64,000 nucleotides of DNA from Globisporangium splendens (lineage: Eukaryota; Oomycota; Peronosporomycetes; Pythiales; Pythiaceae): contig VFIW01000032.1 of assembly GCA_006386115.1 (NCBI GenBank), positions 330,668 to 394,667 on the forward strand. Reading direction: 5' to 3'. A program made the position numbers and the translations under genes. Below the pieces are notes generated by a model that saw nothing but the letters and a program-made list of their open reading frames with translations, did no database searches and was not told where the DNA came from. Shown piece after piece: positions 29,946 to 57,420 of the stretch (its first letter is position 1; each line of letters opens with the position of its first letter).

Positions 29946-30595
29946 TGTAATGGGCTATAACCAGCCATTACATGAAGGTGGATCTGTTCCCAGATCTAGT
30001 CTGGCACACACCACCTTCAGCGTGCATTGTGGAGACACAAATAACAAAGGGATTACGGTAATACAGTCCCCACATGCACGTGTGACGTCATTCGATGACG
30101 TCGCGAGTGTTCTCTGTGCTGATCAGTGCAGAATGTTGTTCTCATGTACTAATCAGTATTGAGCAATGACATCCATGTACTAATTAAGCACTGAGTGATG
30201 ATTCCTGCTTGGGAAACCGCACTGGCGACGAGACCGACGTGTCTCTGCCGCCTGAAGTGAGTGACTCGCGCCACTCACTTTGCAGGGATTTTAAATAAGA
30301 CTTGAAGTTCAAGCTTCTCGAAGATCCCGTAGGTTCAACCTCAGTGTACCCAAGGTTTTATATATCAGATTCATAGGTTTTATTGTGCATGTTTAGGTTT
30401 TAGTTATAAAACCTGTAGGATCCCTTGGGGTTCATTTGTAAGTAGCGACAGGAACCATAACTACATTTCAATTCAGTTGCAAATTTTCCTCCAAGTACTC
30501 AAGTTTTCTTCCTCCCTCCAAGTCGGAGATCGCTTCCTCTGGCACAAGCGTGTGTGCCGTGTTTGAGGGACTGTTGTGAACAGCGCCCTCTTACA
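29946..30595 (+). repeat. Element B 5' LTR
   Basis: 650 bp. TTCAGTTGCAAATTTTCCTCC at 30472-30492 resembles the oomycete Inr/FPR core promoter. Diagnostic variants versus the 3' LTR: GGCTATAACC, GTCTGGCAC, GACGTCGCGAG, CCATGTAC, GTGCATG. Confidence 0.92.
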
Positions 30596-30597
30596 CC

Positions 30598-30612
30598 TGG
30601 TAGCACTTTGAG
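30598..30612 (+). other. Primer-binding site of element B
   Basis: TGGTAGCACTTTGAG lies two bases after the 5' LTR and shares its first 11 bases with the element A site. Confidence 0.6.
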
Positions 30613-30714
30613 CGGTCCTTCCAACGACCCAGTGAAGTGAAGAGGTTTGACGACGCGGCTTTAAGCACGTCGAGCATTCCTGTCCAAGACCCTGCGAGGA
30701 TCCTTGTTTGGAAC

Positions 30715-34401: not shown

Positions 34402-36525
34402 GAGATCGTCGAAGGGTACAAGTCTGACGAAACATGTCAGGACTTGTTGAAGTACTTCAAGGACCCTTCCGACAAAGCACTGCAAGGTCTTCCGTCGCGC
34501 ACAAGATCGCGAGTTCACCGCTTTCGAGTACACAATGGGTTGTTGTACTACGCGGTCGAACAAGGGGATACAGCAAGGGTTGTTGTTCCCAACGACGAAG
34601 GTCTGCGTCATCGACTCTTGTATGAGTACCATGACAGTACTTCGGGTGGCCATCTCGGACGTGAGAAAACGTTTCTCAGCCTTTCCCGGGATTACTACTG
34701 GCCACACATGTACAAGTGGGTTCGCAAGTATGTGAGGACTTGCGAGATCTGCCAACGAGTGAAACCTTCTGGTTCCACGCAGGCACCACTTCGTTCATTG
34801 GCTGTCCCATCGGACAGTTGGAAGTCTGTGAATATGGATTTCATATTCGGACTTCCAAGAGACACACATGGACGCAATGGCATCCTTGTGTTTGTGGACC
34901 GATTCAGCAAGATGGTTCATCTTGCGCCTGTTTCGGACAAGATCTCTGTTGAGAAGACTGCCAAGGTCTTTGTAGACGTCGTATTCCGTCTACACGGACT
35001 ACCAGTCGAGATCGTGTCTGACCGTGACACCCGTTTCACGTCCAAGTTCTGGCGTGCACTGTTCGGACTTCTGGACACCAAGTTGTCCATGTCAACAGCG
35101 GCACACCCTGAAACGGACAGTCAAACAGAGCGAGTGAATCGTGTCCTCGAAGACGTGTTGCGCAGCTGCGCAACGTCTTTCAAAGAGTGGAGTGGGTTTC
35201 TCCCTCTTGCCGAGTTTGCGTTGAACAACTCCACGCATATCTCGACAGGTCACTCTCCATTTTATGTGAACTATGGCATTCACCCTCGAGTGCCTGCTTC
35301 CATAATGGGTGAGGTCTCTACCTTAAGTGGGGGAGGGACTCCGGCTCACGGAAACAAGCCGAAGTCGTCTTACGACCTGAATGCTGCTTCCGAGTTGAAA
35401 GCCAATTTTGACTCGATGAAACCCCTCGACGACCTAACAAGTCGTGAAGAGCAGCAAGTCGATGACTTTATTGTGAGGAGACAAGCCGTTGTGAGGTTTG
35501 TTCGAGACGCAATCGCGAAGGCTCAGGATCTGCAAAAGGAACAAGCAGACAAGAGTGGAAGGAAGAACAAGCAAGTATATAAGATCAATGATCTTGTATT
35601 ACTTAGCACGGCGAACCTGCCTGAACATGCAGTGTCCAACTTGGGAAGCTCAAAGCTTCTGCCAAGGTTCATCGGACCGTTCAAGGTAGCGAAATGCAAT
35701 GGTGATGCCTACACGCTAGACATACCTACACGCATGCGTCTACACCCAACATTTTATGTGGGTAGACTAAAGCCTTACCTTCCAAGTGGATCTGCGGATC
35801 CTACGAGATCTTCCGCAAACGATCGAGCTGATCGTGAAGCTTCTCCACGTGATTGCGAAGAGCAAACAGCTCATCGCTCTGGAGATTCTTCTCGGCGTAC
35901 AGGAGTTGCAGGATGTCGAAGGATTGGTCCTTCACTGCCTCCAACGCTTGAAGACGAGAATGGTACTCGCCACGAAGTACCTCGAGAGCCGAGCCTGCCT
36001 CTTCCACAGAGCGCAACAGGCGATCGTGAGCCAACTCACGGGACTTCTCGTTCTTCTGGAGTCGAACAAGTTCGTCCTGAACCTGTTGGAACCGTTCCTC
36101 ATAACGGGACTCCAAAGCCGAACACTGGGCAGAACCTTCTGTCAGATCGTCGATCTTCGACTCGTGATCGGCGACAAGGTTCTCGAGACTCTCGCAGCGT
36201 TCCGCAAGTGTCGAACAACGCTGCTGCAGCGCCTCGATTTGCCCACGATGAGCGCTCTTCCACTTCCAGAGTCGCTCAATCGTTTTCTCGTTCAGCCCCA
36301 CCCCCGTTGTTAGACTCTCAGGGAGAGCATCGCTGGGTGGTTGAGTCGATTGTTGATCATGAAGATCGACCGACTCATCGTCGAGGAAAGAAGCGGTTGA
36401 ACCATCAACGCTTCTACAGAGTTCGGTGGTGTGGATATCCACCGAGCTCGGACACGTGGGAGCCTCGTCAGACATTGGAGTCTGATGTTCCCGATGTGGT
36501 CCGCAGCTATGAGAACTGCTTGTAG
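34402..36525 (+). pseudogene. Element B integrase with chromodomain
   Basis: In frame with the RT apart from the TAA. HHCC zinc finger (GGHLGREKTFLSL ... CEICQRVKP). DDE core: VNMDFIFGLP (Asp), EIVSDRDTRFTSKF (Asp) and DSQTERVNRVLED (Glu). C-terminal GPY-like domain (LLPRFIGPFKVAK; HPTFYVGRLKPYLP), then a 200-residue Ser/Arg/Pro-rich linker, then a chromodomain (WVVESIVDHED; FYRVRWCGYPPSSDTWEP) that would direct integration to modified chromatin. The linker and chromodomain overlap an antisense ORF (35801-36868). The integrase itself reads intact but depends on a broken upstream pol. Confidence 0.87.
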
Positions 36526-36868
36526 CGTCGCCAGGGGCGACACTACGACGACCAGAGCTACGGTTCGCTCTGTCGTCGGTGGGAGTTCTTCTTTGGGCAC
36601 GAGCATTGCCACGACGAAGAAGACGCTCCATCTTGTTCTCGTTCTCAAGACGAACAAATGTTCGCCATGAGTCTCGCTGGGCTGCGATGTGTTGGTTCGG
36701 ATCATCGCGATCGTTGATCCGACGCCAACTGAAGAACCGCTCCTTGTAGAACTCGAGCTCCCCCTTCTTCTTCAGAATGGGAGAGATGTCGAAGAGTTCT
36801 GGAGCTGTCCGCTGTCGCTTGGACGACGGACGTTCTTCTCGGTTCACTTGGTCACTTGGTCGCTTCAT
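35801..36868 (-). CDS. Element B antisense ORF, coiled-coil protein
   Basis: 355 codons from the ATG at 36868 (MKRPSDQVNREERPSSKRQR, a nuclear-localisation-like basic start). The middle is low-complexity and polar. The C-terminal 150 residues are strongly helical with heptad character (IEALQQRCSTLAERCESLEN; HRLQALEAV-type repeats; LRNHVEKLHDQLDRL). It begins between the pol stop and the 3' LTR, and stops about eight codons past the integrase motif FYVGRLKPY on the other strand. A core-promoter match ends 5 nt upstream of its ATG. The sense strand over the coiled coil encodes only a low-complexity linker, suggesting that the antisense frame carries the constraint there. Its function is unknown, and no family was recognised. 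Element A has an ORF in the equivalent place. Confidence 0.6.
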   Translation of the reverse strand: MKRPSDQVNREERPSSKRQRTAPELFDISPILKKKGELEFYKERFFSWRRINDRDDPNQHIAAQRDSWRTFVRLENENKMERLLRRGNARAQRRTPTDDRANRSSGRRSVAPGDATSSSHSCGPHREHQTPMSDEAPTCPSSVDIHTTELCRSVDGSTASFLDDESVDLHDQQSTQPPSDALPESLTTGVGLNEKTIERLWKWKSAHRGQIEALQQRCSTLAERCESLENLVADHESKIDDLTEGSAQCSALESRYEERFQQVQDELVRLQKNEKSRELAHDRLLRSVEEAGSALEVLRGEYHSRLQALEAVKDQSFDILQLLYAEKNLQSDELFALRNHVEKLHDQLDRLRKIS

Positions 36869-36872
36869 TGCC

Positions 36873-36886
36873 GAATGAAAAGTGAA
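36873..36886 (-). promoter_or_regulatory. Inr/FPR-like element for the element B antisense ORF
   Basis: The minus strand reads TTCACTTTTCATTC, then GG, 5-18 nt upstream of the antisense ATG. It resembles the SDR-c promoter (TCACTTTTCAATTTT). Confidence 0.5.
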
Positions 36887-36931
36887 CTGCTCCGAAAGGT
36901 CTGCAAAAGTACGCAAGGTACTTGTGACTTT

Positions 36932-36944
36932 AAGGAGGGGATGA
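36932..36944 (+). other. Polypurine tract of element B
   Basis: AAGGAGGGGATGA directly precedes the 3' LTR. It primes plus-strand DNA synthesis. Confidence 0.7.
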
Positions 36945-37594
36945 TGTAATGGGCCACAACCAGCCATTACATGAAGGTGGATCTGTCCCCAGATCTAGTG
37001 TGTCACACACCACCTTCAGCGTGCATTGTGGAGACACAAATAACAAAGGGATTACGGTAATACAGTCCCCACATGCACGTGTGACGTCATTCGATGACGT
37101 CACGAGTGTTCTCTGTGCTGATCAGTGCAGAATGTTGTTCTCATGTACTAATCAGTATTGAGCAATGACATCCGTGTACTAATTAAGCACTGAGTGATGA
37201 TTCCTGCTTGGGAAACCGCACTGGCGACGAGACCGACGTGTCTCTGCCGCCTGAAGTGAGTGACTCGCGCCACTCACTTTGCAGGGATTTTAAATAAGAC
37301 TTGAAGTTCAAGCTTCTCGAAGATCCCGTAGGTTCAACCTCAGTGTACCCAAGGTTTTATATATCAGATTCATAGGTTTTATTGTGTATGTTTAGGTTTT
37401 AGTTATAAAACCTGTAGGATCCCTTGGGGTTCATTTGTAAGTAGCGACAGGAACCATAACCATTTTTAATTCAGTTGCAAATTTTCCTCCAAGCCCTCAA
37501 GTCTTTATCCTCCCTCCAAGTCGGGAGATCGCTTCCTCTGGCACAAGCGTGTGTGCCGTGTTTGAGGGACTGTTTGGAACAGCGCCCTCTTACA
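36945..37594 (+). repeat. Element B 3' LTR
   Basis: 650 bp. Diagnostic variants: GGCCACAACC, GTGTGTCAC, GACGTCACGAG, CCGTGTAC, GTGTATG and a changed stretch before the core promoter. Followed by TSD GATCC. Confidence 0.92.
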
Positions 37595-38286
37595 GATCCC
37601 AAAGAATGTCAAGGACTTGCGCAAGTGGCTTGGCTTGGCAAAATACTTGCACAAGTGCAGCCACAACTATGCGGCGAGAGTCCGTCCGCTCACGCATCTC
37701 TTGAAAAAGGATGTCGAGTGGGACTGGACGAATGATGTCATGAATGCATTCATTGACGTGAAGGAGTCGCTCGTTCGCGCTCCTGTCCTGGCGTTGCCGG
37801 ACCACACGAAAGCCTTCAGTGTCGTGTGCGATGCCAGCGATTTTGCAATCGGCTGTGCGCTGATGCAGAAGGATGATGACGGCCATGAGCGCGTCGTATC
37901 ATACCAAAGCAGACTGCTTAAGGCAGCTGAAAAGAATTATCCTGTGCACGACAAGGAGCTGCTTGCGATCAAGTACGCCCTCTTGAAGTTCAGGGTCCAC
38001 CTTTTGGGTGCGACACCGTTCGTTGTGTACACGGATCACGCGTCCTTGCGGACCGCGATTAATTCCCCCCATTTATCGCAGCGAATGGCGCGATGGCTTG
38101 CATTCTTCTCCGAGTTCAACTTTCGGGTCGAATACAAGCCGGGAAAGGAAAATGTTCTGGCGGACGCGCTCTCGCGCCGTCCAGATTACGAGTCGAGCGC
38201 TGACAGCAGCTCTGACGCCCTGTGTTTGGAGCGCACTCCTGATCTCATGCATCTGAGCATCAGTCGAGTGCAAACAAAGCTCAAGG
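37595..38286 (+). pseudogene. Element A RNase H (outer copy, second piece)
   Basis: Continues the RT of 27882-29945 after element B: the RT thumb (KNVKDLRKWLGLAKYLHK), then RNase H (FSVVCDASDFAIGCALMQ; HDKELLAIKYALLKFRVHL; YTDHASLRTAI) and ADALSRRPDY. It ends at TSD CAAGG (38282-38286), where the antisense A copy is inserted. Integrase resumes at 47931. Confidence 0.87.
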
Positions 38287-38820
38287 TGTAACCGGACACT
38301 TCCGAGTTACGCAGCACGGTACGTGTGTGAGGAAGCGTATGCAACGCTTCTCTCAAGGACTCTGTTCCGAGAGCGGTTGCCTGCTTCCTGCAGTGCAACA
38401 ATCGGTTACCTACAGGTCTCTATAGAGTAACCGTCGATAACCAAAGACTTAGTTAACGGTAAAAATGGAACTGTTTATTTGTTGGAGGTTGCCCTCTGTA
38501 GGACAACCTGGATTATCTTTATGTAACTATGAACAATAGCAATCTCAAGTGTAATTACTCCCCATGGGGCAATGAGTGGCTATGAAAGACTAACGCTAGT
38601 TGTCTTATGTGATTGGATGAAATGCATGTTCAATTATATCCAATCGGAGGCGCCGTCACTCAGACTGGCTGCCGGCTCCACCGTGAAGGTTCGAGCAAGT
38701 ACGACGAACCTCATGGTTCGGTCTTAAACTTGTTGCGCGTACTCTACGTACCGCAAGGTTCGGTTTGGTTGTGTGGCACAACACAAGTGCGTAACCATGT
38801 TACAGTGTAACCCCGTTACA
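38287..38820 (-). repeat. Element A LTR, 3' LTR of the antisense copy
   Basis: 534 bp, reverse complement of the 26130 LTR. Adjacent to the PPT (reverse complement CCACCCCCCACTT at 38821-38833). Confidence 0.9.
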
Positions 38821-38904
38821 CCACCCCCCACTTAAAGTGCGAAACACTCGAAGGGTCGGTGTGAGAAACGTGTGGATCTCGCGCGTGTGCGCCGAGAAAG
38901 GGGA

Positions 38905-38921
38905 ACATTCGTGTATTCCTC
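38905..38921 (+). promoter_or_regulatory. Possible core promoter for the element A antisense ORF
   Basis: ACATTCGTGTATTCCTC resembles the Inr/FPR composite, 84-100 nt upstream of the ATG at 39005. The match is weak. Confidence 0.3.
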
Positions 38922-39004
38922 GGGAAAGAGCACAGCGGCGACGCGTGCGTTAATTTCACCGAGTGTTGGCACATATAGTCACTGTGCTCGCGCACGTGAG
39001 TATC

Positions 39005-40549
39005 ATGGCCACCAACAAAGCTGTCCGCGAGAAGCTCGCGCGACAAAAAGGGGAAGGCGTCGGCACTCTCGTCGAAACTCTGCGCAAGCGCGAGGAAGAC
39101 AGAGAGGTCGCGTCGAGCGCAAGACGAACGACAGTCACCGCGGATGCGGTCGACGTGCCTGCGGAGAGCGACGGCAGGTCTGCTCTCACATCTGATAGCG
39201 CTCCTGCTATAAGCAGTGAGCTGCGATTCGGAGATCTCCCTTCCGTGAAGCCGTTGCTTGCGCGTGCTTTGGAAGAGGAGGAAGCGACTGAGGAATTCCT
39301 CGTCGTTGACAATGACGGGAGCTCGCTTGAAGACGAGGGAGCGCTCACTGAGAAGAGAGGCTCCATCGACGAGTGGGTCGAGTACGAGGAGTTGCAAAGC
39401 AAGCGACACGCCGCTTATCTCCACGAGCTCGAGCGAGATCCCTCGGCAGACGTCTCGATGTATCGGACGAAGGAGGAAAATAACGCCGTTGAGGCTGTCA
39501 ACAATCGCAAGAGGAAGCACGAAGTCCTCATTACAAACGAAGAGGCAGGAGTGCGAGCTATCGTTCACGATGAGCTCAAGTACTCACTGCCCGAAATGCC
39601 GCCGCCAGAACTATGGCCGGCTGGCAAGACCGCATCGAATCTGCTCGCGAGAGCCAGACTTTGTGCGTGGGACTATGACGCTCAATTTAAAAATTGGCGT
39701 GAAAAGCGATTGCGGGATGAAAATGGGGAATTGCGTATTCACCCGATCCCAGTCGTCCTCTTTGTTGGAGAGACGGAAGAAGAGTACGATGCCGACTTCA
39801 TGTCGTGCATCAATAAAATTAAGGGAGGTAGCACTCGCACAGTGTCTACCGATCCGACAGCGCAACGCAGTCAACGCATGCAATTTGCAGTTGACCGTGT
39901 TCGTCTGTTTCGCTCCAAGCAGGGCGGTGGCACGCCTCTGCGAGCGGGTGGTCGCGCTGGTATCAGGCGACAAATTACTCGCGCGAATGACAGTCCCTCA
40001 GTTGCGCCTCAAAGGCGTCAACAAGATCCGGGACGTCTTCGCGAAGACGCTCAGCAGGCTCCCACGAGCTCTGCGACACATCGTACCCACGCCACTTCAC
40101 AAGGTAGTGGGTGTTCCCCTTACGCCGCTGCACACGCAGCAGGCGCTCAACATGGTTGTGGCGCTGTCCCTGCTTGTCAATCAGCGGGACAGGTGGCGCC
40201 CTACTTCGCTTCAGCATCGGTGGTTGCACCAGATGCGATGGTTCAGATGGTTCACGCGAACGCATCGTCTTTGGGGGCGCTACAGCAAGCCGTCCGTACC
40301 CTTCGCCAGCAATATCTGGACGAAACCTCGCTGTTGAAGCAGAGGGTGACAGCGCTTGAGACGGAGCTGAAGGAAGCTCGTCAGATGCTGGAGGAGTACC
40401 ATGTCCGCGGGAAGCACTTCCACGCGAGGTACGCTCCGCGAGTGAAGACGCTTTGGGAGAGGCACAACGCGCTCGTGTCTCGATGGGCGGCGTCTGAGCC
40501 CCCTGATGAGACCGACGTTCTCCCGGACTGGGATAAAAATCCACAGTAG
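39005..40549 (+). CDS. Element A antisense ORF (copy in the nested element)
   Basis: 514 codons from the ATG at 39005 (TATCATGGCC, a favourable context). N-terminal basic/acidic region (MATNKAVREKLARQKGEGVG; ARALEEEEATEEFLVVDNDG). A central segment (LLARARLCAWDYDAQFKNW; HPIPVVLFVGETEEEYD) may be a folded domain. Then comes a low-complexity part lying opposite the chromodomain, and a C-terminal coiled coil (LLKQRVTALETELKEARQML). The ORF ends at TAG 40547-40549, three to four codons past the FYVGLLKRY motif of integrase on the other strand. The equivalent ORF in the outer copy is also intact with about seven amino-acid differences, while pol is broken in both. It is antisense to the host element, as in element B. 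No family recognised. Confidence 0.6.
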   Translation: MATNKAVREKLARQKGEGVGTLVETLRKREEDREVASSARRTTVTADAVDVPAESDGRSALTSDSAPAISSELRFGDLPSVKPLLARALEEEEATEEFLVVDNDGSSLEDEGALTEKRGSIDEWVEYEELQSKRHAAYLHELERDPSADVSMYRTKEENNAVEAVNNRKRKHEVLITNEEAGVRAIVHDELKYSLPEMPPPELWPAGKTASNLLARARLCAWDYDAQFKNWREKRLRDENGELRIHPIPVVLFVGETEEEYDADFMSCINKIKGGSTRTVSTDPTAQRSQRMQFAVDRVRLFRSKQGGGTPLRAGGRAGIRRQITRANDSPSVAPQRRQQDPGRLREDAQQAPTSSATHRTHATSQGSGCSPYAAAHAAGAQHGCGAVPACQSAGQVAPYFASASVVAPDAMVQMVHANASSLGALQQAVRTLRQQYLDETSLLKQRVTALETELKEARQMLEEYHVRGKHFHARYAPRVKTLWERHNALVSRWAASEPPDETDVLPDWDKNPQ

Positions 40550-42235
40550 CGTCATGGTAGCGCTTAAGCAAACCCACGTAGAACACGGGGTGCGTTGCCA
40601 TTCGCGTTGGGAGATCGAGCTTGTAATTCAAGTCTCCAATCTTCTCCACAACAGTGTATGGCCCGATAAATCGTGGCAACAACTTACTCCCGCTGGGGAG
40701 CGTTGTGGCTGCATCGTTTGGTAGGTTTTTAATGCTCAATAGCACTTTATCACCCACACAAAACGTTTGTTTGTTCTTTCTACCCGATTTATCGGCGTAG
40801 AGCTTTTGCTTGTCTTGCGCAGCAGCTAGTTGGTCGCGCACGCGATGCAACAATGCTGCGCGCTCATCGACAAATTGCCGCGCTGCCGCGACGGCTTTGT
40901 CTTGCTTTTTCGTTGCTCTCGCAGCGCGTGCTGCAGAGAGATCTATTTCTGCGCCGGTGGGTGACACCGCGCGTCCTTCCCTTTCGTGGCTGACGCTCGC
41001 ACGAGCAGTCGCCTGATTCCGTCTGAGACTGGCTATTTTTAGCATGAGTACCGTAACTCGGTACCGTGGGAGATCCATCTATAGGGACACGAGTACCGTA
41101 ACTCAGTACCGTGGGAGATCCATCTATAGGGACACGAGTACCGTAACTCTGTACCGTGTTTTTCTCTCCAAATGTGGAACGCGTGCCGTCCGGTAAGACC
41201 GTGACAGATTCGGAACGCGATCGCACAGGCGGCGCATCGCGCGCGTCCACATGAGCGGCTAACGCTACGTCTGGTGACGGAGGTCGCGCGCTCGCATCGA
41301 GCGCAGCGAGTTGCCCTCCCACCGCAGAACGTTCGACGCCCTCAAACAGAGTGGCGGGTGCCGCAGCGAGTTAAAATAGAACGGAGTCACGGCCGTAGAG
41401 GCGTGCTCGCTGCTATTTATAGCAAACTCGGCGTACGGCAGCCAGCGGCTCCAGTCGCGGGGATGGTCGACAGCGATGCTGCGAAGAATATCCTCGACGA
41501 CACGGTTCACGCGCTCAGTTTGCCCGTCTGTCTCGGGGTGATCGGCAGTGGACAACGCCAGATCTGTGCCGAGCAGGCGAAAGAGTTCGCGCCAAAAGGC
41601 AGCGGTAAAACGCGGGTCCCGGTCTGATACAATAGACTCGGGCAAGCCGTGATAGCGGAACACGTGCTCTAAAAATAGGCACGCCGTCTCTTGCGCAGTG
41701 ACATGCTTGCGCACGGGTGCAACATGCACCATTTTGCTCAGTCGATCGACGAACACGACGACGCCTGTGTTGCGCGCCTTGTCTTCCGGGAAACCGAAGA
41801 CGAAATCCATGCTGACCGACTTCCAGCAGTCTTGCGGAATCGGCAGCGGATGCAGCGGCGCTTTGTTCTTGCCCGCAGGCTTCACGCGCTGGCACTGCTC
41901 GCATGAGCGTACATAATTGGCCACCCATTTGTATTGGTGTGGCCACCAAAACACATTAGACACTTGCAAGAAGGTCTTTTCACGTCCGAGATGCCCACTC
42001 GCTGGTGCATCGTGAAACTCATGCAGGATCGAAAGTTTCAGATCCTGGTCATGCGGTACATACACACGCGGGTAATCAAAGTTGGACAGTCGATGCCACA
42101 ACAACCCGTCGTGGTAACTAAACCGAGCAAGCTTTGACTCGAGTTTGGCAGGCAATGACTCTTTGGACGAGCCGTCAAAGTGAGCAAGCAACAAGCGACA
42201 TTCATCGTCCTTTGGATAAAGCGACTGAATATTGT
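39975..42235 (-). pseudogene. Element A integrase-chromodomain (antisense copy, frameshifted)
   Basis: 42235-41350: integrase zinc finger (SGHLGREKTFLQV ... CEQCQRVKP) and DDE core (VSMDFVFGFP, SIVSDRDPRFTAAF, DGQTERVNRVVED). An 8-bp loss near 41365 relative to the outer copy shifts the frame. The linker (41322-40990) carries a 45-bp tandem repeat, and another 1-bp shift occurs near 40980. 41078-39975 then encodes a spacer helix, GPY-like domain (LLPRFIGPYTVVEK; HPVFYVGLLKRY), linker and chromodomain (HVERLLRVQRRKGNTHYLVKWRGYD). The last third overlaps the antisense ORF. Confidence 0.85.
41044..41165. repeat. 45-bp tandem repeat in the integrase linker
   Basis: Units with GAGTACCGTAACTC, then GTACCGTGGGAG, then ATCCATCTATAGGGACAC, about 2.7 copies. 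45 bp is 15 codons (SYGTRVPIDGSPTV in the linker frame). A diverged version is at 49018-49135. Confidence 0.75.
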
Positions 42236-42240
42236 CCTTG

Positions 42241-42773
42241 TGTAACGGGGTTACACTGTAACATGGTTACGCACTTGTGTTGTGCCACACAACCAAACCG
42301 AACCTTGCGGTACGTAGAGTACGCGCAACAAGTTTAAGACCGAACCATGAGGTTCGTCGTACTTGCTCGAACCTTCACGGTGAGCCGGCAGCCAGTCTGA
42401 GTGACGGCGCCTCCGATTGGACATAATTGAACATGCATCTCATCCAATCACATAAGACAACTAGCGTTAGTCTTTCATAGCCACTCATTGCCCATGGGGA
42501 GTAATTACACTTGAGATTGCTATTGTTCATAGTTACATAAAGATAATCCAGGTTGTCCTACAGAGGGCAACCTCCAACAAATAAACAGTTCCATTTTTAC
42601 CGTTAACTAAAGTCTTTGGTTATCGACGGTTACTCTATAGAGACCTGTAGGTAACCGATTGTTGCACTGCAGGAAGCAGGCAACCGCTCTCGGAACAGAG
42701 TCCTTGAGAGAAGCGTTGCATACGCTTCCTCACACACGTACCGTGCTGCGTAACTCGGAAGTGTCCGGTTACA
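42241..42773 (+). repeat. Solo element A LTR inside the antisense A copy
   Basis: 533 bp, opposite in orientation to its host element. TSD CCTTG is at 42236-42240 and 42774-42778. It is the most diverged of the five A LTRs (three small indels and a few substitutions). Confidence 0.88.
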
Positions 42774-42778
42774 CCTTG

Positions 42779-43465
42779 AGCTTTGTTTGCACTCGACTGA
42801 TGCTCAGATGCATGAGATCAGGAGTGCGCTCCAAACACAGGGCGTCAGAGCTGCTGTCAGCGCTCGACTCGTAATCTGGACGGCGCGAGAGCGCGTCCGC
42901 CAGAACATTTTCCTTTCCCGGTTTGTATTCGACCCGAAAGTTGAACTCGGAGAAGAATGCAAGCCATCGCGCCATTCGCTGCGATAAATGGGGGGAATTA
43001 ATCGCGGTCCGCAAGGACGCGTGATCCGTGTACACAACGAACGGTGTCGCACCCAAAAGGTGGACCCTGAACTTCAAGAGGGCGTACTTGATCGCAAGCA
43101 GCTCCTTGTCGTGCACAGGATAATTCTTTTCAGCTGCCTTAAGCAGTCTGCTTTGGTATGATACGACGCGCTCATGGCCGTCATCATCCTTCTGCATCAG
43201 CGCACAGCCGATTGCAAAATCGCTGGCATCGCACACGACACTGAAGGCTTTCGTGTGGTCCGGCAACGCCAGGACAGGAGCGCGAACGAGCGACTCCTTC
43301 ACGTCAATGAATGCATTCATGACATCATTCGTCCAGTCCCACTCGACATCCTTTTTCAAGAGATGCGTGAGCGGACGGACTCTCGCCGCATAGTTGTGGC
43401 TGCACTTGTGCAAGTATTTTGCCAAGCCAAGCCACTTGCGCAAGTCCTTGACATTCTTTGGGATC
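42779..43465 (-). pseudogene. Element A RNase H (antisense copy)
   Basis: Near-identical to 37595-38286: RT thumb, then RNase H (FSVVCDASDFAIGCALMQ; YTDHASLRTAI; ADALSRRPDY). It is flanked by the solo A LTR on one side and the solo B LTR on the other. Confidence 0.87.
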
Positions 43466-44115
43466 TGTAAGAGGGCGCTGTTCCAAACAGTCCCTCAAAC
43501 ACGGCACACACGCTTGTGCCAGAGGAAGCGATCTCCCGACTTGGAGGGAGGATAAAGACTTGAGGGCTTGGAGGAAAATTTGCAACTGAATTAAAAATGG
43601 TTATGGTTCCTGTCGCTACTTACAAATGAACCCCAAGGGATCCTACAGGTTTTATAACTAAAACCTAAACATACACAATAAAACCTATGAATCTGATATA
43701 TAAAACCTTGGGTACACTGAGGTTGAACCTACGGGATCTTCGAGAAGCTTGAACTTCAAGTCTTATTTAAAATCCCTGCAAAGTGAGTGGCGCGAGTCAC
43801 TCACTTCAGGCGGCAGAGACACGTCGGTCTCGTCGCCAGTGCGGTTTCCCAAGCAGGAATCATCACTCAGTGCTTAATTAGTACATGGATGTCATTGCTC
43901 AATACTGATTAGTACATGAGAACAACATTCTGCACTGATCAGCACAGAGAACACTCGCGACGTCATCGAATGACGTCACACGTGCATGTGGGGACTGTAT
44001 TACCGTAATCCCTTTGTTATTTGTGTCTCCACAATGCACGCTGAAGGTGGTGTGTGCCAGACTAGATCTGGGAACAGATCCACCTTCATGTAATGGCTGG
44101 TTATAGCCCATTACA
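43466..44115 (-). repeat. Solo element B LTR inside the antisense A copy
   Basis: 650 bp, TSD GGATC (43461-43465 and 44116-44120). Its 5' half carries the variants of the 29946 LTR and its 3' half those of the 36945 LTR, as expected for a product of recombination between those two LTRs. Confidence 0.9.
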
Positions 44116-46178
44116 GGATCGACCAGTCGGCGATCGCCTTGATCTTCTCTGGGTCCGCGCGGACGCCAGCTTTGCCAACATAGCAGCCCAGGATCGGTAT
44201 CTCTGAGGCGCCAAAGATGCATTTCTTCAGGTTGCAATACAGACTGTTGTCTCGTAAGCACTGCAACACTGAGCGCAAATGTCTCTTGTGCACGTCAACG
44301 ACACTGAGACCTCCTTCGGCACGACTGTGCACGAAGATGTCATCGAAATAGCTCGGTGCATACGCACGATGAGGACGCAGAAGATGCGTTACCAGACGAT
44401 TGAACGTCGCTGGTGCATTCCTCAAACCTTGCGGCATAACGAGCCACTCCCACAGCATCCCGCTGGGTGTGCTTACTGCCGTCAAGGGACGTCACTCTCT
44501 CGCATGAGGATCTGATAGAACCCATCCATCAGATCCAGTGCGGAGAACACTGTCGAGCCGCCCATGGAGTCGATCAAGACATCCTTCCTTGGGATCGGCG
44601 TTTGTGCCGGAATGGTGGCGGCGTTCAGCTTGTTGAAAGCGTGAACAATGCGCCAGCCACCAGTCGCTTTCCGCACACAAAACGTGGGTGAGCTGTGTGG
44701 AGACTTGCTTTCTCTCACATGACCGGCGAGGGCTCGTTTCGCGAAGAACTCGTCGATAGCCTCAACCTGCTCGCGGGGCAGCGGCCATTGTCTGGTCACG
44801 CAATATTTGCTCCCGGGCTCGAGGTCAATCTCGTGCCGTACGCCACGATCAACGGGCAGGGCACTTGGCACTTTGTCGGGGAAGACATCTTTGAACTCCC
44901 ACAATAAGTCAAAGTATGGACTGCCTTTCACGGCGTCCCAATCCTGAGCAGCAAACCGTTTCTGTTTGTCTGGCTCCAAAACACTCTCATCCGCAGTGGA
45001 CGAGGTGCATAGTTCGCTACGCGTGAACGCAGTCGGAACGACGATCTCGCGGATCTGATCACGCTCTAGATCCGTAAGAAAGAGCTCATAGCTCATTTCT
45101 TCGAGGGATACAATCGCCTCAGCGGTACTCGGCAGCTCATGGAGCGCCGCAAATTCAGCGAAGAACACTTCGTCTGATGCGTTTGCTTCCGGACTGCGTG
45201 TCGCGCGTCTGAGCGCCACGTCAACGTGAGCGCGATCTATCGACGGATCCGAGATCCTGTCGAAGGCGCGCAGCGAAGTTGCAGCTGCATTGAAAGATGG
45301 GGCAATCATATGCGAGGCGGCCGTTTCCTCAGCAACAGATGCCAATGCACTGTCTCTCTCGCGAGCTGACAACTTGCGTCGCCCTCGTCGGTTGATGCGA
45401 ACGCGCGACCTCGCGGTTCTGAGCTCCAGTACTGCACCGTCAGGGTGGTACGAGCTGGTTGACGCGTGTACACCTGTACTGTCGCTGTCACTTGCGGGGG
45501 CTGGCTCGGGTGCTCTGGAGCCGCACACTTGCGCACCAGTGTCCACGTCTGGACTTTCTGGCGCTTCCGCACAAACTGGGCTACCTGCCGCAGTTGATCT
45601 CTTTGCTGGGCTCCCTGCCACAGCGTGTTCAAAGCTCGCATCCATTGCGTGGAAATTTTCCCGCAATCTTCGCTCTTCATCAGAGGAAGGGGTGGAGCTT
45701 CCGATTGTGCGTGCTCGCCAATCGATCCAAGGCTGATGTTTCGCCAGCCAAGGCATCCCTAGGATGAGGTCGCACTTCGACCCCATCGCTAGTACCACGA
45801 ACGTTTCTTTGCAGACAAAGTCGCAAAAACTGAAAGAGAGTTCGACTTGAACCCCTTCAGTGTGTACTGTCGACCCATCGGCCAGACGTACGATCATCTT
45901 CTCGCGCTTGCCACTGTGGACAAGCCGCTCATACGCTTGCAGACTCTTTTTCAGAGCTGCCTTCAAGACGAAGTTCTGTGACGCACCGCAGTCAACAAGA
46001 ACCGTCATTTTCTTCTCATAGCCCTTCACATCGGCGCTATATACCAACATCTCACTCGGAGCCTTGTTGTCAAGAGCTCCTGGGACTAAGCTTCCCATCT
46101 GCACGACTCTAGTAGTCGGCGACGCCGAAGCTATAGAGTCTGTCTCAGTAGAGCGTCCCGCTTCTACTGAGACATTCC
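44116..46178 (-). pseudogene. Element A protease-reverse transcriptase (antisense copy)
   Basis: Continuous from the gag overlap to 44482: protease (MTVLVDCGASQNFV; LILGMPWL), linker (intact here, with GAA where the outer copy has TAA) and N-terminal RT (FSALDLMDGFYQILM). A 1-bp deletion at about 44485 (GACGTCCC versus GACGTTCCC) shifts the frame. The rest of the RT (MPQGLRNAPATFNRL; APSYFDDIFVHS) reads in another frame to the solo B LTR at 44115. Confidence 0.87.
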
Positions 46179-47324
46179 GTTTCCCTTTCTTGCCGCAGCG
46201 GATCTGCCACCTCGATGAGCGTGGTTGCTGCGCGGCGTTTGGTAGTCTCTCGCCTGATTTCCAGTGCGAGGAGCAGACTGCCTTGGAGCGGGACACTTCG
46301 ACTGATAGTGTCCCCGCTTGCCACAATTAAAGCAGGTCACTTCGGCGCTGCTGAGATCCATTGGTGTCGGACCATGGAAGCGCCGCTCATTCGTGACTGC
46401 TCGGTGGCTGTGATGCGCACCGTTGTGGCGGCCAGCGTTCCAATCAGGTCGGCTGACTCTGAACGATTGCTGCTCAACGAGCGCAATGCGGATCGCATCT
46501 TCCATCGTGGCCGGCAAGCGTCGGTACAACTCCTGACGCGCTGGTCCACTGTTGAGGCCGTTGAGAAACGCAGGCACTTTCACAGACTCAGGCAAAGGAC
46601 TGGTCGTGATCGCCGCGCACAGGCTTCTCATCTCCTGGATGTATCGTTCCAGTGAGAGCTTCCCTTGTTTCAAGGAGAAGAAACGACCTTGCAACAGCAC
46701 TTCGTTGTTCGGAGGCTGATACATGGCGGTGATTCTCGCACGGAAAATATCCCACGTGTTGAATGCACACTCATCGGCGAGCAACGTCGAGAATGCCCAT
46801 TCCGACGCTCGACCGCGCAGGTTCGAGATGGCGTAAGACACCATCTGCTCGTTGCTGTCGATGAGCTGAGCCTTGGCGCAACGCTCCACGGCGAGTAGCC
46901 AGTGGATGAGCTTGTCGCCATCCGCACCATCGAATTTCGGAGCGTCAATCTTGACAGCTCTTGGGCGGGGAGTTTGGGACGCGGGTGTCTGAGGCGCAGA
47001 AGCCGCACTCGACAAAGACGTGGCTGCACCAGCAACCACAGAAACCACTCGCTCGAGCGCTTCGCGCGACTCAGCAGCTGAGCGCAGCATCTCTGCGGTC
47101 AAGCTTGCGGTGGCTTGCATTTGTGCTTGCGCACTTCGCTCTCCTTCGAGGCGCTGAGCGTTCGAGAAGTTCTCGAACTGCTCGAGTCGAAAGATTTGCT
47201 GTTCCGGCGACGCCGAGAGCACGTCTAGAGCGACTTGGTCGCCTAGCGCTTGTGCCATTCGGGTCAGCACACTCCGGTGCTCAGCCGAGAGGTGCGGGAA
47301 CTGCGCAGGGTCAATTGACGCCAT
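46164..47324 (-). CDS. Element A gag (intact)
   Basis: 386 codons starting at ATG 47324 (MASIDPAQFPHLSAEHR). Coiled N-terminal region (ERSAQAQMQATASLTAEML), then capsid-like gag (VKIDAPKFDGADGDKLIHWL; ITAMYQPPNNEVLLQGRFF), then a CCHC zinc knuckle (CFNCGKRGHYQSKC) and a basic tail. This is the best gag of family A in the window; the outer copy differs by a handful of residues and a lost ATG. It overlaps pol, which is in the -1 frame. Confidence 0.88.
   Translation of the reverse strand: MASIDPAQFPHLSAEHRSVLTRMAQALGDQVALDVLSASPEQQIFRLEQFENFSNAQRLEGERSAQAQMQATASLTAEMLRSAAESREALERVVSVVAGAATSLSSAASAPQTPASQTPRPRAVKIDAPKFDGADGDKLIHWLLAVERCAKAQLIDSNEQMVSYAISNLRGRASEWAFSTLLADECAFNTWDIFRARITAMYQPPNNEVLLQGRFFSLKQGKLSLERYIQEMRSLCAAITTSPLPESVKVPAFLNGLNSGPARQELYRRLPATMEDAIRIALVEQQSFRVSRPDWNAGRHNGAHHSHRAVTNERRFHGPTPMDLSSAEVTCFNCGKRGHYQSKCPAPRQSAPRTGNQARDYQTPRSNHAHRGGRSAAARKGNGMSQ
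46179..46185 (-). promoter_or_regulatory. -1 frameshift heptamer of element A (antisense copy)
   Basis: The minus strand reads G GGA AAC in the gag frame, 13 nt before the gag stop at 46164-46166. Confidence 0.65.
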
Positions 47325-47396
47325 GATGAATCCTTGAGGAAGCGATTCAGGCAGTCACCTCTGCCGGGTCGTAGATTGACTACTAGTGCTACCAGT

Positions 47397-47930
47397 TGTA
47401 ACCGGACACTTCCGAGTTACGCAGCACGGTACGTGTGTGAGGAAGCGTATTCAACGCTTCTCTCAAGGACTCTGTTCCGAGAGCGGTTGCCTGCTTCCTG
47501 CAGTGCAACAATCGGTTACCTATAGGTCTCTATAGAGTAACCGTCGATAACCAAAGACTTAGTTAACGGTAAAAATGGAACTGTTTATTTGTTGGAGGTT
47601 GCCCTCTGTAGAACAACCTGGATTATCTTTATGTAACTATGAACAATAGCAATCTCAAGTGTAATTACTCCCCATGGGGCAATGAGTGGCTATGAAAGAC
47701 TAACGCTAGTTGTCTTATGTGATTGGATGAAATGCATGTTCAATTATATCCAATCGGAGGCGCAGTCACTCAGACTGGCTGCCGGCTCCACCGTGAAGGT
47801 TCGAGCAAGTACGACGAACCTCATGGTTCGGTCTTAAACTTGTTGCGAGTACTCTACGTACCGCAAGGTTCGGTTTGGTTGTGTGGCACAACACAAGTGC
47901 GTAACCATGTTACAGTGTAACCCCGTTACA
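47397..47930 (-). repeat. Element A LTR, 5' LTR of the antisense copy
   Basis: 534 bp, reverse orientation. The PBS (reverse complement AGTGCTACCA) lies at about 47385-47394, and TSD CAAGG follows at 47931-47935. Confidence 0.9.
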
Positions 47931-47935
47931 CAAGG

Positions 47936-50199
47936 ACAATATTCAGTCGCTTTATCCAAAGGACGATGAATGTCGCTTGTTGCTTGCTCACTTTGACGGC
48001 TCGTCCAAAGAGTCATTGCCTGCCAAACTCGAGTCAAAGCTTGCTCGGTTTAGTTACCACGACGGGTTGTTGTGGCATCGACTGTCCAACTTTGATTACC
48101 CGCGTGTGTATGTACCGCATGACCAGGATCTGAAACTTTCGATCCTGCATGAGTTTCACGATGCACCAGCGAGTGGGCATCTCGGGCGTGAAAAGACCTT
48201 CTTGCAAGTGTCTAATGTGTTTTGGTGGCCACACCAATACAAATGGGTGGCCAATTATGTACGCTCATGCGAGCAGTGCCAGCGCGTGAAGCCTGCGGGC
48301 AAGAACAAAGCGCCGCTGCATCCGCTGCCGATTCCGCAAGACTGCTGGAAGTCGGTCAGCATGGATTTCGTCTTCGGTTTCCCGGAAGACAAGGCGCGCA
48401 ACACAGGCGTCGTCGTGTTCGTCGACCGACTGAGCAAAATGGTGCATGTTGCACCCGTGCGCAAGCATGTCACTGCGCAAGAGACGGCGTGCCTATTTTT
48501 AGAGCACGTGTTCCGCTATCACGGCTTGCCCGAGTCTATTGTATCAGACCGGGACCCGCGTTTTACCGCTGCCTTTTGGCGCGAACTCTTTCGCCTGCTC
48601 GGCACAGATCTGGCGTTGTCCACTGCCGATCACCCCGAGACAGACGGGCAAACCGAGCACGTGAACCGTGTCGTCGAGGATATTCTTCGCAGCATCGCTG
48701 TCGATCATCCCCGCGACTGGAGCCGCTGGCTGCCGTACGCCGAGTTTGCTATAAATAGCAGCGAGCACGCCTCTACGGCCGTGACTCCGTTCTATTTTAA
48801 CTCGCTGCGGCACCCGCGCGTACCCGCCACTCTGTTCGAGGGCGTCGAACGTTCTGCGGTGGGAGGGCAACTCGCTGCGCTCGATGCGAGCGCGCGATCT
48901 CCGTCACCGGACGTGGCGTCGACCGCTCACGTGGACGCGCGCGATGCGCCGCCTGTGCGATCGCGTTCCGAATCTGTCACGGTCTTACCGGACAGCACGA
49001 GGGTATTGACATGACGGGCACGGTACTGAGTTACAGTACTCGTGTCCCTAAAGATGAATCACCCACGGTACAGAGTTACGGTACTCGTGTCCCTATAGAT
49101 GGCTCTCCACGGTACCGAGTTACGGTACCGTGCTAAAAATAGCCAGTCTCAGACGGAATCAGGCGACTGCTCGTGTGAGCGTCAGCCACGAATGGAAGGA
49201 CGCGCGGTGTCACACACCGGCGCAGAAATAGATCTCTCTGCAGCACGCGCTGCGAGAGCAACGAAAAAGCAAGACAAAGCCGTCGCGGCAGCGCGGCAAT
49301 TTGTCGATGAGCGCGCAGCATTGTTGCGTCGCGTACGCGACCAACTAGCTGCTGCGCAAGACAAGCAAAAGCTCTACGCCGATAAATCGGGTAGAAAGAA
49401 CAAACAAACGTTTTGTGTGGGTGATAAAGTGCTATTGAGCATTAAAAACCTACCAAACGATGCAGTCACAACGCTCCCCAGCGGGAGTAAGTTGTTGCCA
49501 CGATTTATCGGGCCATACACTGTTGTGGAGAAGATTGGAGACTTGAATTACAAGCTCGATCTCCCAACGAGAATGGCAACGCACCCCGTGTTCTACGTGG
49601 GTTTGCTGAAACGCTACCATGACGCTACTGTGGATTTTTATCCCAGTCCGGGAGAACGTCGGTCTCATCAGGGGGCTCAGACGCCGCCCATCGAGACACG
49701 AGCGCGTTGTGCCTCTCCCAAAGCGTCTTCACTCGCGGAGCGTACCTCGCGTGGAAGTGCTTCCCGCGGACATGGTACTCCTCCAGCATCTGACGAGCTT
49801 CCTTCAGCTCCGTCTCAAGCGCTGTCACCCTCTGCTTCAACAGCGAGGTTTCGTCCAGATATTGCTGGCGAAGGGTACGGACGGCTTGCTGTAGCGCCCC
49901 CAAAGACGATGCGTTCGCGTGAACCATCTGAACCATCGCATCTGGTGCAACCACCGATGCTGAAGCGAAGTAGGGCGCCACCTGTCCCGCTGATTGACAA
50001 GCAGGGACAGCGCCACTACCATGTTGAGCGCCTGCTGCGTGTGCAGCGGCGTAAGGGGAACACCCACTACCTTGTGAAGTGGCGTGGGTACGATGTGTCG
50101 CAGAGCTCGTGGGAGCCTGCTGAGCGTCTTCGCGAAGACGTCCCGGATCTTGTTGACGCCTTTGAGGCGCAACTGAGGGACTGTCATTCGCGCGAGTAA
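47936..50199 (+). pseudogene. Element A integrase-chromodomain (outer copy, third piece)
   Basis: Integrase resumes right after TSD CAAGG: NIQSLYPKDDECRLLLAHF, zinc finger (SGHLGREKTFLQV; CEQCQRVKP) and DDE core (VSMDFVFGFP; SIVSDRDPRF; DGQTEHVNRVVED). The frame stops at TGA 49012-49014 in the repeat-bearing linker. From about 49099 it reads on in another frame: GPY-like domain (LLPRFIGPYTVVEK; HPVFYVGLLKRY), linker and chromodomain (YHVERLLRVQRRKGNTHYLV). TAA is at 50197-50199. Linker and chromodomain lie opposite the antisense ORF 49625-51169. Confidence 0.86.
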
Positions 50200-51169
50200 T
50201 TTGTCGCCTGTTACCAGCGCGACCACCCGCTCGCAGAGGCGTGCCACCGCCCTGCTTGGAGCGAAACAGACGAACACGGTCAACTGCAAATTGCATGCGT
50301 TGACTGCGTTGCGCTGTCGGATCGGTAGACACTGTGCGAGTGCTACCTCCCTTAATTTTATTGATGCACGACATGAAGTCGGCATCGTACTCTTCTTCCG
50401 TCTCTCCAACAAAGAGGACGACTGGGATCGGGTGAATACGCAATTCCCCATTTTCATCCCGCAATCGCTTTTCACGCCAATTTTTAAATTGAGCGTCATA
50501 GTCCCACGCACAAAGTCTGGCTCTCGCGAGCAGATTCGATGCGGTCTTGCCAGCCGGCCATAGTTCTGGCGGCGGCATTTCGGGCAGTGAGTACTTGAGC
50601 TCATCGTGAACGATGGCTCGCACTCCTGCCTCTTCGTTTGTAATGAGGACTTCGTGCTTCCTCTTACGATTGTTGACAGCCTCAACGGCGTCATTTTCCT
50701 CCTTCGTCCGATACATCGAGACGTCAGCGGATGGATCTCGCTCGAGCTCGTGGAGATAAGCGGCGTGTCGCTCGCTTTGCAACTCCTCGTACTCGACCCA
50801 CTCGTCGATGGAGCCGAGCTTCTCGGTGAGCGCTCCCTCGTCTTCAAGCGAGCTCCCGTCATTGTCAACGACGAGGAATTCCTCAGTCACTTCCTCCTCT
50901 TCCAAAGCACGCGCGAACAACGGCTTCACGGAAGGGAGATCTCCGAATCGCAGCTCACTGCTTATAGCAGGAGCGCTATCAGATGTGAGAGCAGACCTGC
51001 CGTCGCTCTCCGCAGGCACGTCGACCGCATCCGCGGTGACCGTCGTTCGTCTTGCGCTCGACGCGACCTCTCTGTCTTCCTCGCGCTTGCGCAGAGTTTC
51101 GACGAGAGTGCCGACGCCTTCCCCTTTTTGTCGCGCGAGCTTCTCGCGGACAGCTTTGTTGGTGGCCAT
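49625..51169 (-). CDS. Element A antisense ORF (outer copy)
   Basis: 514 codons from the ATG at 51169, colinear with 39005-40549. About seven residues differ (for example LFARALEEEEVTEE versus LLARALEEEEATEE, and KLGSI versus KRGSI), none of them a stop. The first 320 codons lie in the 1.15 kb between the pol stop and the 3' LTR, where no sense ORF exists. The remainder runs antisense to chromodomain and linker. A C-terminal coiled coil is predicted from heptads (LLKQRVTALETELKEARQML). Function unknown. Confidence 0.6.
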   Translation of the reverse strand: MATNKAVREKLARQKGEGVGTLVETLRKREEDREVASSARRTTVTADAVDVPAESDGRSALTSDSAPAISSELRFGDLPSVKPLFARALEEEEVTEEFLVVDNDGSSLEDEGALTEKLGSIDEWVEYEELQSERHAAYLHELERDPSADVSMYRTKEENDAVEAVNNRKRKHEVLITNEEAGVRAIVHDELKYSLPEMPPPELWPAGKTASNLLARARLCAWDYDAQFKNWREKRLRDENGELRIHPIPVVLFVGETEEEYDADFMSCINKIKGGSTRTVSTDPTAQRSQRMQFAVDRVRLFRSKQGGGTPLRAGGRAGNRRQITRANDSPSVAPQRRQQDPGRLREDAQQAPTSSATHRTHATSQGSGCSPYAAAHAAGAQHGSGAVPACQSAGQVAPYFASASVVAPDAMVQMVHANASSLGALQQAVRTLRQQYLDETSLLKQRVTALETELKEARQMLEEYHVRGKHFHARYAPRVKTLWERHNALVSRWAASEPPDETDVLPDWDKNPQ

Positions 51170-51340: not shown

Positions 51341-51353
51341 AAGTGGGGGGTGG
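51341..51353 (+). other. Polypurine tract of element A
   Basis: AAGTGGGGGGTGG directly upstream of the 3' LTR; also present at 38821-38833 in reverse. Confidence 0.75.
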
Positions 51354-51887
51354 TGTAACGGGGTTACACTGTAACATGGTTACGCACTTGTGTTGTGCCA
51401 CACAACCAAACCGAACCTTGCGGTACGTAGAGTACGCGCAACAAGTTTAAGACCGAACCATGAGGTTCGTCGTACTTGCTCGAACCTTCACGGTGGAGCC
51501 GGCAGCCAGTCTGAGTGACGGCGCCTCCGATTGGATATAATTGAACATGCATTTCATCCAATCACATAAGACAACTAGCGTTAGTCTTTCATAGCCACTC
51601 ATTGCCCCATGGGGAGTAATTACACTTGAGATTGCTATTGTTCATAGTTACATAAAGATAATCCAGGTTGTCCTACAGAGGGCAACCTCCAACAAATAAA
51701 CAGTTCCATTTTTACCGTTAACTAAGTCTTTGGTTATCGACGGTTACTCTATAGAGACCTATAGGTAACCGATTGTTGCACTGCAGGAAGCAGGCAACCG
51801 CTCTCGGAACAGAGTCCTTGAGAGAAGCGTTGCATACGCTTCCTCACACACGTACCGTGCTGCGTAACTCGGAAGTGTCCGGTTACA
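51354..51887 (+). repeat. Element A 3' LTR (outer copy)
   Basis: 534 bp, plus orientation. Immediately followed by GCTACTCATCG, which is gag of element C. Confidence 0.9.
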
Positions 51888-52951
51888 GCTACTCATCGAA
51901 GAAGTCAGTGATGCATGCTGAATCCTCTGATTTTGTGACTATGATATCCAGTAATTTGGGTAAGACTGTCCTTAACTGGTACCGCGCCTTCTCGGCTCAA
52001 TGCGAGTCTGAGAACGTGCCGAAGTCATGGTCGTTGTTTAAAACTAGACTTCGTGAACGTTTCCGCCCCAAAGATTTTGAGTATAATCTGCGGGAGAGGT
52101 TGTTTCACCTCAAACAAACTGGCTCGATCCATGAGTATGTCTCGCGTTTTCAAGACTTACTCTCGCAGTCAGAGTTGTCAATTTCCGAAATGGAAAAGCG
52201 ATTCTACTTCCAAAACGGATTGAGGAATGAGACAGCCAAGAAAATAAAGGAGGAAAGTCCTAACCGTCTGGCTGATGTCATTGAGATTGCATCGAATTTT
52301 GAGTTTGCTCATTTTGCTGGCAAGTCCCCGCAAACCAGCAGCGCTGGAAGTATCAGCAAACCAAAAGCGGAAAAGAAGCAATTCTCACAAAAATCAAAGG
52401 ACAAGCAGAAAGACGACTGGAAGAAGACTGCCATCTGCCACAAATGTGGAAAGAAAGGGCATATCGCACCGGATTGCCGGGCAAAGAAGGAGACAGCCAA
52501 TTTTATCAACGGTTCTTTCTATGCAATTCTGGAAGTAAGTGCGAAAGCTTTCAGTGAAGATACCGAACAGGTTGATGTTTCCATCTTCATTGACAACGGA
52601 TGCAGTATAAATGGCATTTCACCTGAACTGGCAGAAAAGCTCCACTTGATCGTTGAAGAAGATCCATCCCAGACTATGCAAATTAGTCTTGGGTTTGGCG
52701 AGACGATTGTAAAGCCAAAGCGATTGGCAGTGATGCATCTTGCTATTACTGGATTTCCGATGTTACGCCAGAAATTTCAGGTTATGCCAATTCCTGAAGG
52801 AAAGGATGTGATTTTGGGTATGATGTGGTTACGTGAGCAGAATCCAGAAATCGACTGGGAAGCTCTCACGTTGAAGCCTAGAGACGTCGAGCTCTTGCTT
52901 GAATTAAACAAACCACTTGTAAAGGTTCCACAGCCAGTCAAGCATCGTTAA
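51888..52951 (+). pseudogene. Element C gag-protease fragment
   Basis: Gag capsid-like region (WSLFKTRLRERFRPKDFEY; LFHLKQTGSIHEYVSRF), Lys-rich spacer, CCHC knuckle (CHKCGKKGHIAPDC), then protease in the same frame (VSIFIDNGCSINGIS with catalytic DNG; VILGMMWL). Unlike A and B, no frameshift separates gag from protease. The start is truncated at 51888. TAA at 52949-52951 interrupts a frame that is otherwise continuous into the RT. Confidence 0.84.
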
Positions 52952-57411: not shown

Positions 57412-57420
57412 AAACCACAG

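Follow-up and report, generated by a model that had tools for sequence, protein, structure and literature searches.

Antisense reading frames in two Ty3/gypsy families

The window analysed here, a 64,000-nucleotide stretch of contig VFIW01000032.1 in the 53.3 Mb assembly of the oomycete Globisporangium splendens, contains two families of retrotransposons, A and B, that carry long open reading frames (ORFs) on the strand opposite to pol. Both have gag, protease, reverse transcriptase and an integrase with SH3-like fold and chromodomain (Pfam) between long terminal repeats (LTRs), and thus belong to Ty3/gypsy; the order at the C-terminal end of the integrase is SH3_Tf2-1, then a linker, then the chromodomain. 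The RVT_1 match of A scores under the Pfam cut-off because the A ORF is cut short, and the pol frames of the window copies of both families are interrupted. Element A is present in two copies, copy 1 nested in copy 2, which are about 98-99% alike and therefore count as one observation.

The three intact antisense ORFs that a first-pass annotation of the sequence had reported, one in B and one in each copy of A, are present where it placed them (Table 1). As it also stated, they start between the pol stop and the 3' LTR. In B the start is an ATG at 36868, common to most aligned relatives, with the LTR beginning at 36945; the frame is open further upstream, to an ATG at 36967 that falls inside the LTR. 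The 3' LTR and the antisense ATG are roughly 75 bp apart in B and roughly 185 bp apart in A. In B the opposing pol frame terminates at 36525, in A at 39975 (copy 1) and 50199 (copy 2), and 322 of the 514 codons of the A ORF lie outside pol. The antisense stop had been placed 3-8 codons past the codons for the integrase motif FYVGxLKxY; it lies 7.3 codons past them in B and 2.3 codons in both A copies.

The model of the A protein has a core at about residues 190-305 predicted with fair to good confidence and an 88-residue helix (409-496) predicted with good confidence, separated by a stretch (307-407) opposite the chromodomain that is predicted to be disordered, with a predicted local distance difference test score (pLDDT) below 50 (mean pLDDT of the model 57.5, predicted template modelling score (pTM) 0.29). 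That of B has four helices within residues 29-93, a likewise disordered stretch opposite the chromodomain (94-183, pLDDT < 50) and one long helix (208-354) that runs nearly to the C-terminus (mean pLDDT 73.6, pTM 0.31). The first-pass annotation had described the antisense segment opposite the chromodomain as low-complexity. From the models the long C-terminal helices, annotated as coiled coils, are probably just that. Opposite them the sense strand does encode a low-complexity linker, in which P, S, R, A, T and G make up 64% (A) and 63% (B) of the residues.

Conservation of the antisense ORFs among copies

The A antisense protein has 34 homologues at E <= 0.001, down to 37% identity, among the 7995 scored candidates that share most words with it, and a profile search gave 37 matches; the B protein has 80 at the same threshold, down to 43% identity. 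Most of these are named G. splendens (28 of 34 and 62 of 80), the other 6 and 18 being entries of ena, jgi and lgn. The A protein has its longest run of invariant residues in the pol-free part, and therefore the conservation is not borrowed from pol.

Stops have not accumulated freely in the antisense frame across copies in the assembly. It is stop-free in 47 of 61 full-length rows for A (rows spanning residues <=6 to 528 of the A query), in 84 of 106 rows for B and in 35 of 42 rows for D, a further family described below (rows from residue 1 to at least 270). The searches begin from the antisense protein and score the best candidates, and thus favour intact copies and cannot count copies that have lost the ORF; within that bias the ORF is conserved in most copies of A, B and D. 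When stops were counted in all six frames, 46-47 copies of A and 32 of B gave 0.03-0.13 per copy in the antisense frame. Over the overlap the figure was 3.5-13.8 for the four frames that are neither antisense nor pol, and for the pol frame, whose own terminal stop may be included, it was 0.62 (A) and 1.22 (B).

Selection outside and inside the overlap

Where the antisense ORF does not face pol, the ratio of non-synonymous to synonymous substitution rates (dN/dS) in the antisense frame is not near 1: it is 0.59, 0.66, 0.33, 0.42 and 0.31 in five chosen pairs over codons 1-322 of A, and 0.21, 0.28, 0.32 and 0.22 in four chosen pairs over codons 34-147 of B. The mirror frame on the sense strand of the pol-free part also has low dN/dS (0.38-0.63) but contains stops, and its low values are what one would expect of a shadow of the antisense frame.

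Read from the coordinates, A, B, D and D2 (a relative of D) all have one and the same phase within the overlap: antisense position 1 faces sense position 1, antisense 2 faces sense 3, and antisense 3 faces sense 2. Therefore selection on the sense frame only should leave many changes at the third sense position (s3) and few at the second (s2), and selection on the antisense frame only should leave the reverse. We counted parsimony steps by codon position, a test that needs no substitution model, on trees restricted to unique copies, of which there were 47 among 56 loci for A and 32 among 37 for B. In the linker of B we observed 136 steps at s1, 150 at s3 and 259 at s2 (p = 8e-8), an inversion of the usual pol pattern, and in the chromodomain of B the normal pol pattern of 21, 36 and 20. 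The corresponding steps in A were 80, 89 and 116 for the linker and 40, 67 and 25 for the chromodomain, and the contrast between chromodomain and linker is significant in both families (Fisher test, p = 2.8e-6 for A and 1.2e-4 for B). The inversion in the B linker is sharper on internal branches (s1 77, s3 64, s2 157; p = 3e-10); terminal branches gave s1 59, s3 86 and s2 102 (p = 0.27). Terminal branches are not simply neutral, because a coding skew is present on them in the pol-free part too (p = 6e-5 for A, 0.002 for B).

The same switch can be followed in a single pair of B loci, L009 and L088. In the pol-only control that adjoins the overlap this pair differs at 1, 5 and 27 sites at s1, s2 and s3, the other four B pairs being similar (s3 13-28, s2 1-5); in the linker it differs at 34 s3 and 72 s2 sites. 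Linker sites at which a change is synonymous in antisense and non-synonymous in sense changed at 0.46, those of the opposite kind at 0.17; opposite the chromodomain the values are 0.10 for antisense-only-synonymous and 0.37 for sense-only-synonymous sites. In family B, then, constraint clearly passes from one strand to the other at the border between linker and chromodomain, and both frames are under purifying selection in the overlap. The first-pass proposal that two frames divide the constraint thus holds clearly for B, and for A it holds in the pol-free part, in the chromodomain stretch and in the contrast between the stretches, the A linker alone being borderline.

Proof that two antiparallel overlapping genes are both functional is hard to obtain in eukaryotes. 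Here the many copies, the range of subfamilies and the convenient phase, which puts s3 on antisense position 2, give a signal of the strand switch that is free of a model. We put the probability that the antisense gene of A and B is conserved, codes for protein and shares its DNA with pol at little conflict at roughly 0.88. That these are real, conserved antisense coding genes with constraint divided between strands is near certain for B, and the case is strong for A.

Several observations weigh against this interpretation. The A linker taken alone gives p = 0.07, a result that hinges on the single divergent locus L017, since the common A subfamilies hardly differ in the linker; without L017 internal branches have 11 steps at s3 and 18 at s2, and the order is reversed on terminal branches (37 and 28). 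The last 88 codons of B show no skew in the pair L088-L092 (29/34/32), and the D linker has too few changes for the comparison in the pair L097-L095 (s1/s3/s2 1/4/1). In two close A pairs, L001-L044 and L001-L018, dN/dS is slightly lower in the mirror frame than in the antisense frame (0.57 vs 0.59 and 0.63 vs 0.66), the mirror frame holding stops. L098, one of the two D2 copies examined, carries a single stop in its antisense frame, and neither fold nor domain matches suggest what the antisense proteins do.

Alternative explanations

The open frame could be a by-product of codon bias and of the sense linker, which is indeed low-complexity. However, in 2000 draws that held the sense protein and took codon usage from gag-pol as a pool, the antisense frame stayed free of stops throughout the overlap in only 0.35%, for A and for B, and most of the A ORF and a third of the B ORF lie outside pol. 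In B this explanation is refuted, s3 of the linker changing more slowly than s2, which is impossible under sense-only selection; overall we consider its chances negligible. One may also consider that the antisense RNA itself is functional, in silencing or autoregulation, with the open frame secondary, since non-coding antisense RNAs of other retroelements have been described and a silencing role proposed for them (PMC7264820). The codon-position pattern and dN/dS, however, show selection at the level of amino acids, and a function of the RNA does not predict more change at antisense position 3 than at positions 1 and 2; it is largely refuted and, in our view, highly improbable. Only marginally more credible is a host gene recently captured in reverse orientation. 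Gene capture has been described for other LTR elements (PMC7264820), and the window A and B proteins match no Pfam family above the cut-off; yet the gene occurs in at least four families (A, B, D, D2) and in many deeply diverged subfamilies, and the homologues that have a name are proteins predicted from G. splendens, searches not aimed at a separate host gene having turned up none.

The main rival to a regulatory protein accepts the coding gene and takes its product as a structural protein of the virus-like particle or a factor in its assembly, such as a coiled-coil scaffold. The long C-terminal helices predicted for A and B would suit such a factor, the ORF is kept in many copies and no domain argues otherwise. 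Against it, the N-terminus of the B protein has a basic bipartite cluster that resembles a nuclear signal and is kept in much of the B alignment, judging by eye (inspection of the A alignment revealed no such conserved cluster), and antisense placement would imply independent expression, which would be odd for a structural protein. We regard a particle factor as unlikely, if well ahead of the other alternatives.

Organization and proposed role

We conclude that each element carries an accessory protein gene opposite gag-pol that starts in the short gap between pol and the 3' LTR, runs back through the 3' end of pol and stops beside the SH3-like fold of the integrase. Opposite the long helix of the antisense protein, the sense strand codes for a free spacer between integrase and chromodomain; opposite the chromodomain, the antisense protein is a disordered tether, so that the two genes share DNA with little conflict. 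Transcription of the antisense gene may start from a promoter of its own in or next to the 3' LTR; its product may oligomerise through the coiled coil and act in the nucleus as an element-encoded regulator that controls transcription, copy number or integration, a role that has also been suggested for antisense ORFs of plants. Of the roles considered we favour this one, an oligomeric nuclear accessory or regulator, tentatively and at somewhat less than even odds.

Regarding the promoter, the motif YCAYTYY, the oomycete initiator (INR) as redefined (PMC3599244), occurs just 5' of the ATG in 28 of the 29 B loci, its place constant to within 1 nt; five of these loci have an otherwise different leader. 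This fits a promoter of its own, weakly if taken alone. It is less persuasive when one considers that a chance match occurs in an 80-nt leader in 20% of shuffles, that the 17-nt spacing implies a very short 5' untranslated region (UTR), the published median being 50 nt, and that the motif is absent from the window A leader and from the D leader of L097. Close to the A antisense ATG, where YCAYTYY is missing, the leaders have CACGTG instead, within 8 nt of the start in 11 of 11 loci compared by eye, divergent subfamilies included (in the window at about 38990-39000).

Comparison with known antisense genes

Antisense additional ORFs between pol and the 3' LTR (aORF-3R) are established in plants, with Grande gene23, RIRE2, Retand ORF4 and PvRetro13 as examples (PMC7264820, PMC11963269). 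Like these, the A and B ORFs are antisense, lie between pol and the 3' LTR, are found in most copies and lack clear outside homologues (PMC7264820, PMC11963269); they also enter pol. The roles of the plant ORFs are given as unknown, with nuclear localisation reported for Grande (PMC7264820) and a nuclear role proposed (PMC7264820, PMC11963269). The available text of these sources describes no overlap with pol, and the pol-to-LTR region of Retand is 2.9-6.6 kb, unlike the overlapping arrangement of A and B (PMC7264820, PMC11963269). In fungi, brtn of Boty/BcGypsy1 (Botrytis cinerea) is an antisense additional gene in a Ty3/gypsy element, likened to A and B here by description only (PMC7264820, PMC8365987).

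A and B differ from the plant ORFs in their oomycete host, in sequence, in the overlap with the chromodomain end of pol and in having no match to TRP28 (PF04195), which was absent from the complete match lists (E <= 1) of A, B, D and the N-terminal part of a D2, from a second search and from the 25 families, of 54, listed in a third. Retroviruses also have antisense genes, namely HBZ, a bZIP protein, of human T-cell leukaemia virus type 1 (HTLV-1) and ASP of human immunodeficiency virus type 1 (HIV-1), from which A and B differ in host, sequence and domain content: no bZIP family appeared in the full match lists or among the 25 of 54 families listed elsewhere, only weak and varied coiled-coil matches. 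The promoters of HBZ and ASP are placed in the 3' LTR (PMC10186651), and ASP overlaps env (PMC4335690, PMC8781085). Chronos elements are oomycete Ty3/gypsy elements with a chromodomain, comparable by host group and domain alone, and the main text of the paper on them never uses the word antisense (PMC5348765).

We found no description of such an antisense gene from oomycetes in the open-licence literature, in keeping with what the first-pass annotation had said. Antisense accessory genes being already known in plant and fungal elements, what is new here is the oomycete hosts, the proteins and the overlap with pol in which constraint is partitioned. Antisense accessory genes of LTR elements now extend to oomycetes, with at least three protein families added, whose members in hand (A, B and D) have no Pfam match above the cut-off, and they offer a natural system for studying how overlapping genes originate and what antisense genes do for a retroelement.

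Modules and further families

Divergence along the antisense ORF is stepwise when measured in 20-codon blocks. Compared with L001, the A loci L045 and L060 differ at 17-72% of sites per block over codons 1-340 and at 0-10% from codon 361. Among the B loci, the difference between L090 and L009 is 10-48% over codons 1-240 and 0-8% thereafter, and L091 shows the opposite. The N-domain and the long helix therefore have separate histories, most simply by way of recombination.

Chromodomain and SH3 searches, each covering the best 150 of more than 600 candidates, brought up family D, with an antisense ORF of up to 565 codons and a shorter C-terminal stretch that is heptad-like by eye. The D antisense protein (L097, 239-1936) has cysteines spaced C-x6-C-x8-C-x2-C, suggesting a metal-binding N-domain. 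D2 (L098 and L099) has the same pattern save x7 for x8 and keeps the N-domain, with a different C-terminal stretch; both families share the layout of A and B. In both D2 copies examined the pol frame has a stop inside the linker, and the antisense frame of L099 is open for 563 codons; the D2 chromodomain may no longer be part of pol. The N-domains of B and D show a collinear similarity that is only suggestive.

By domain boundaries the linker is 96 residues long in D, 133 in A, 185 in B and 23 in C, a chromodomain family also present in the window; neither C nor the likewise short-linker L096 (by eye), examined in one copy each, has an antisense ORF of similar length. Taken jointly, these observations may mean that the long linker exists because of the antisense gene, the coiled coil being primary and the sense linker its read-through complement, whose length tracks that of the coiled coil; the layout would be ancestral to this oomycete clade, with N-domain and coiled coil swapped between subfamilies as modules. 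We put this at somewhat less than even odds. If it is true that the sense linker is an antisense by-product, the length of the tether between integrase and its targeting chromodomain is set by an unrelated protein.

Other features of the window

Table 1. Coordinates of the A and B features within the window
Feature	Position	Strand	Remarks
B antisense ORF	35801..36868	-	355 aa; predicted helical N-domain, disordered middle opposite chromodomain, long C-terminal helix
B overlap, linker half	35801..36333		constraint on antisense strand
B overlap, chromodomain half	36334..36525		constraint on sense strand
B antisense N-domain, pol-free	36526..36868	-	dN/dS 0.21-0.32
B antisense leader	36869..36944	-	INR-like YCAYTYY ~17 nt before ATG
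B pol ORF	34444..36525	+	integrase H2C2, core, SH3_Tf2-1, linker, chromodomain (Pfam)
B 3' LTR	36945..37594	+	partner 5' LTR about 29946-30595
A antisense ORF, copy 1	39005..40549	+	514 aa
A antisense N-part, pol-free	39005..39974	+	dN/dS 0.31-0.66
A overlap, chromodomain half	39975..40154
A overlap, linker half	40155..40549
A copy 1 pol, 3' part	39975..41078	-	SH3_Tf2-1, linker, chromodomain
A copy 1 3' LTR	38284..38820	-	ends within a few bases; 5' LTR about 47394-47931
A copy 1 gag	46164..47324	-	Retrotrans_gag, zf-CCHC
A antisense ORF, copy 2	49625..51169	-	514 aa
A copy 2 pol, 3' part	49099..50199	+
A copy 2 3' LTR	51353..51890	+	5' LTR about 26130-26666

The LTRs of A are about 537 bp long, with 6 differences between the pair of copy 1 and 5 in copy 2. 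Those of B, about 650 bp, are 96.9% identical to each other, because of which B looks older than the A copies; it sits inserted inside A copy 2 (29946-37594). An A-type LTR (42240-42776) lies inside A copy 1 at the same site where copy 1 sits in copy 2, with the same 5-bp flanking duplication, CAAGG/CCTTG by eye, as at that insertion, and a B-type LTR (about 43466-44115) is found in copy 1 where copy 2 carries the whole of B. Such an arrangement requires gene conversion following recombination between LTRs, unless it arose artificially when two inverted stretches of nearly the same sequence were assembled. Elsewhere, several ORFs with RVT_1 or RVT_3 (RNase H) and no integrase match, at 4069-21712 and 56596-57438, are probably remnants of non-LTR retrotransposons, and an aldehyde dehydrogenase coding stretch on the minus strand (61992-62840) is apparently part of a host gene.

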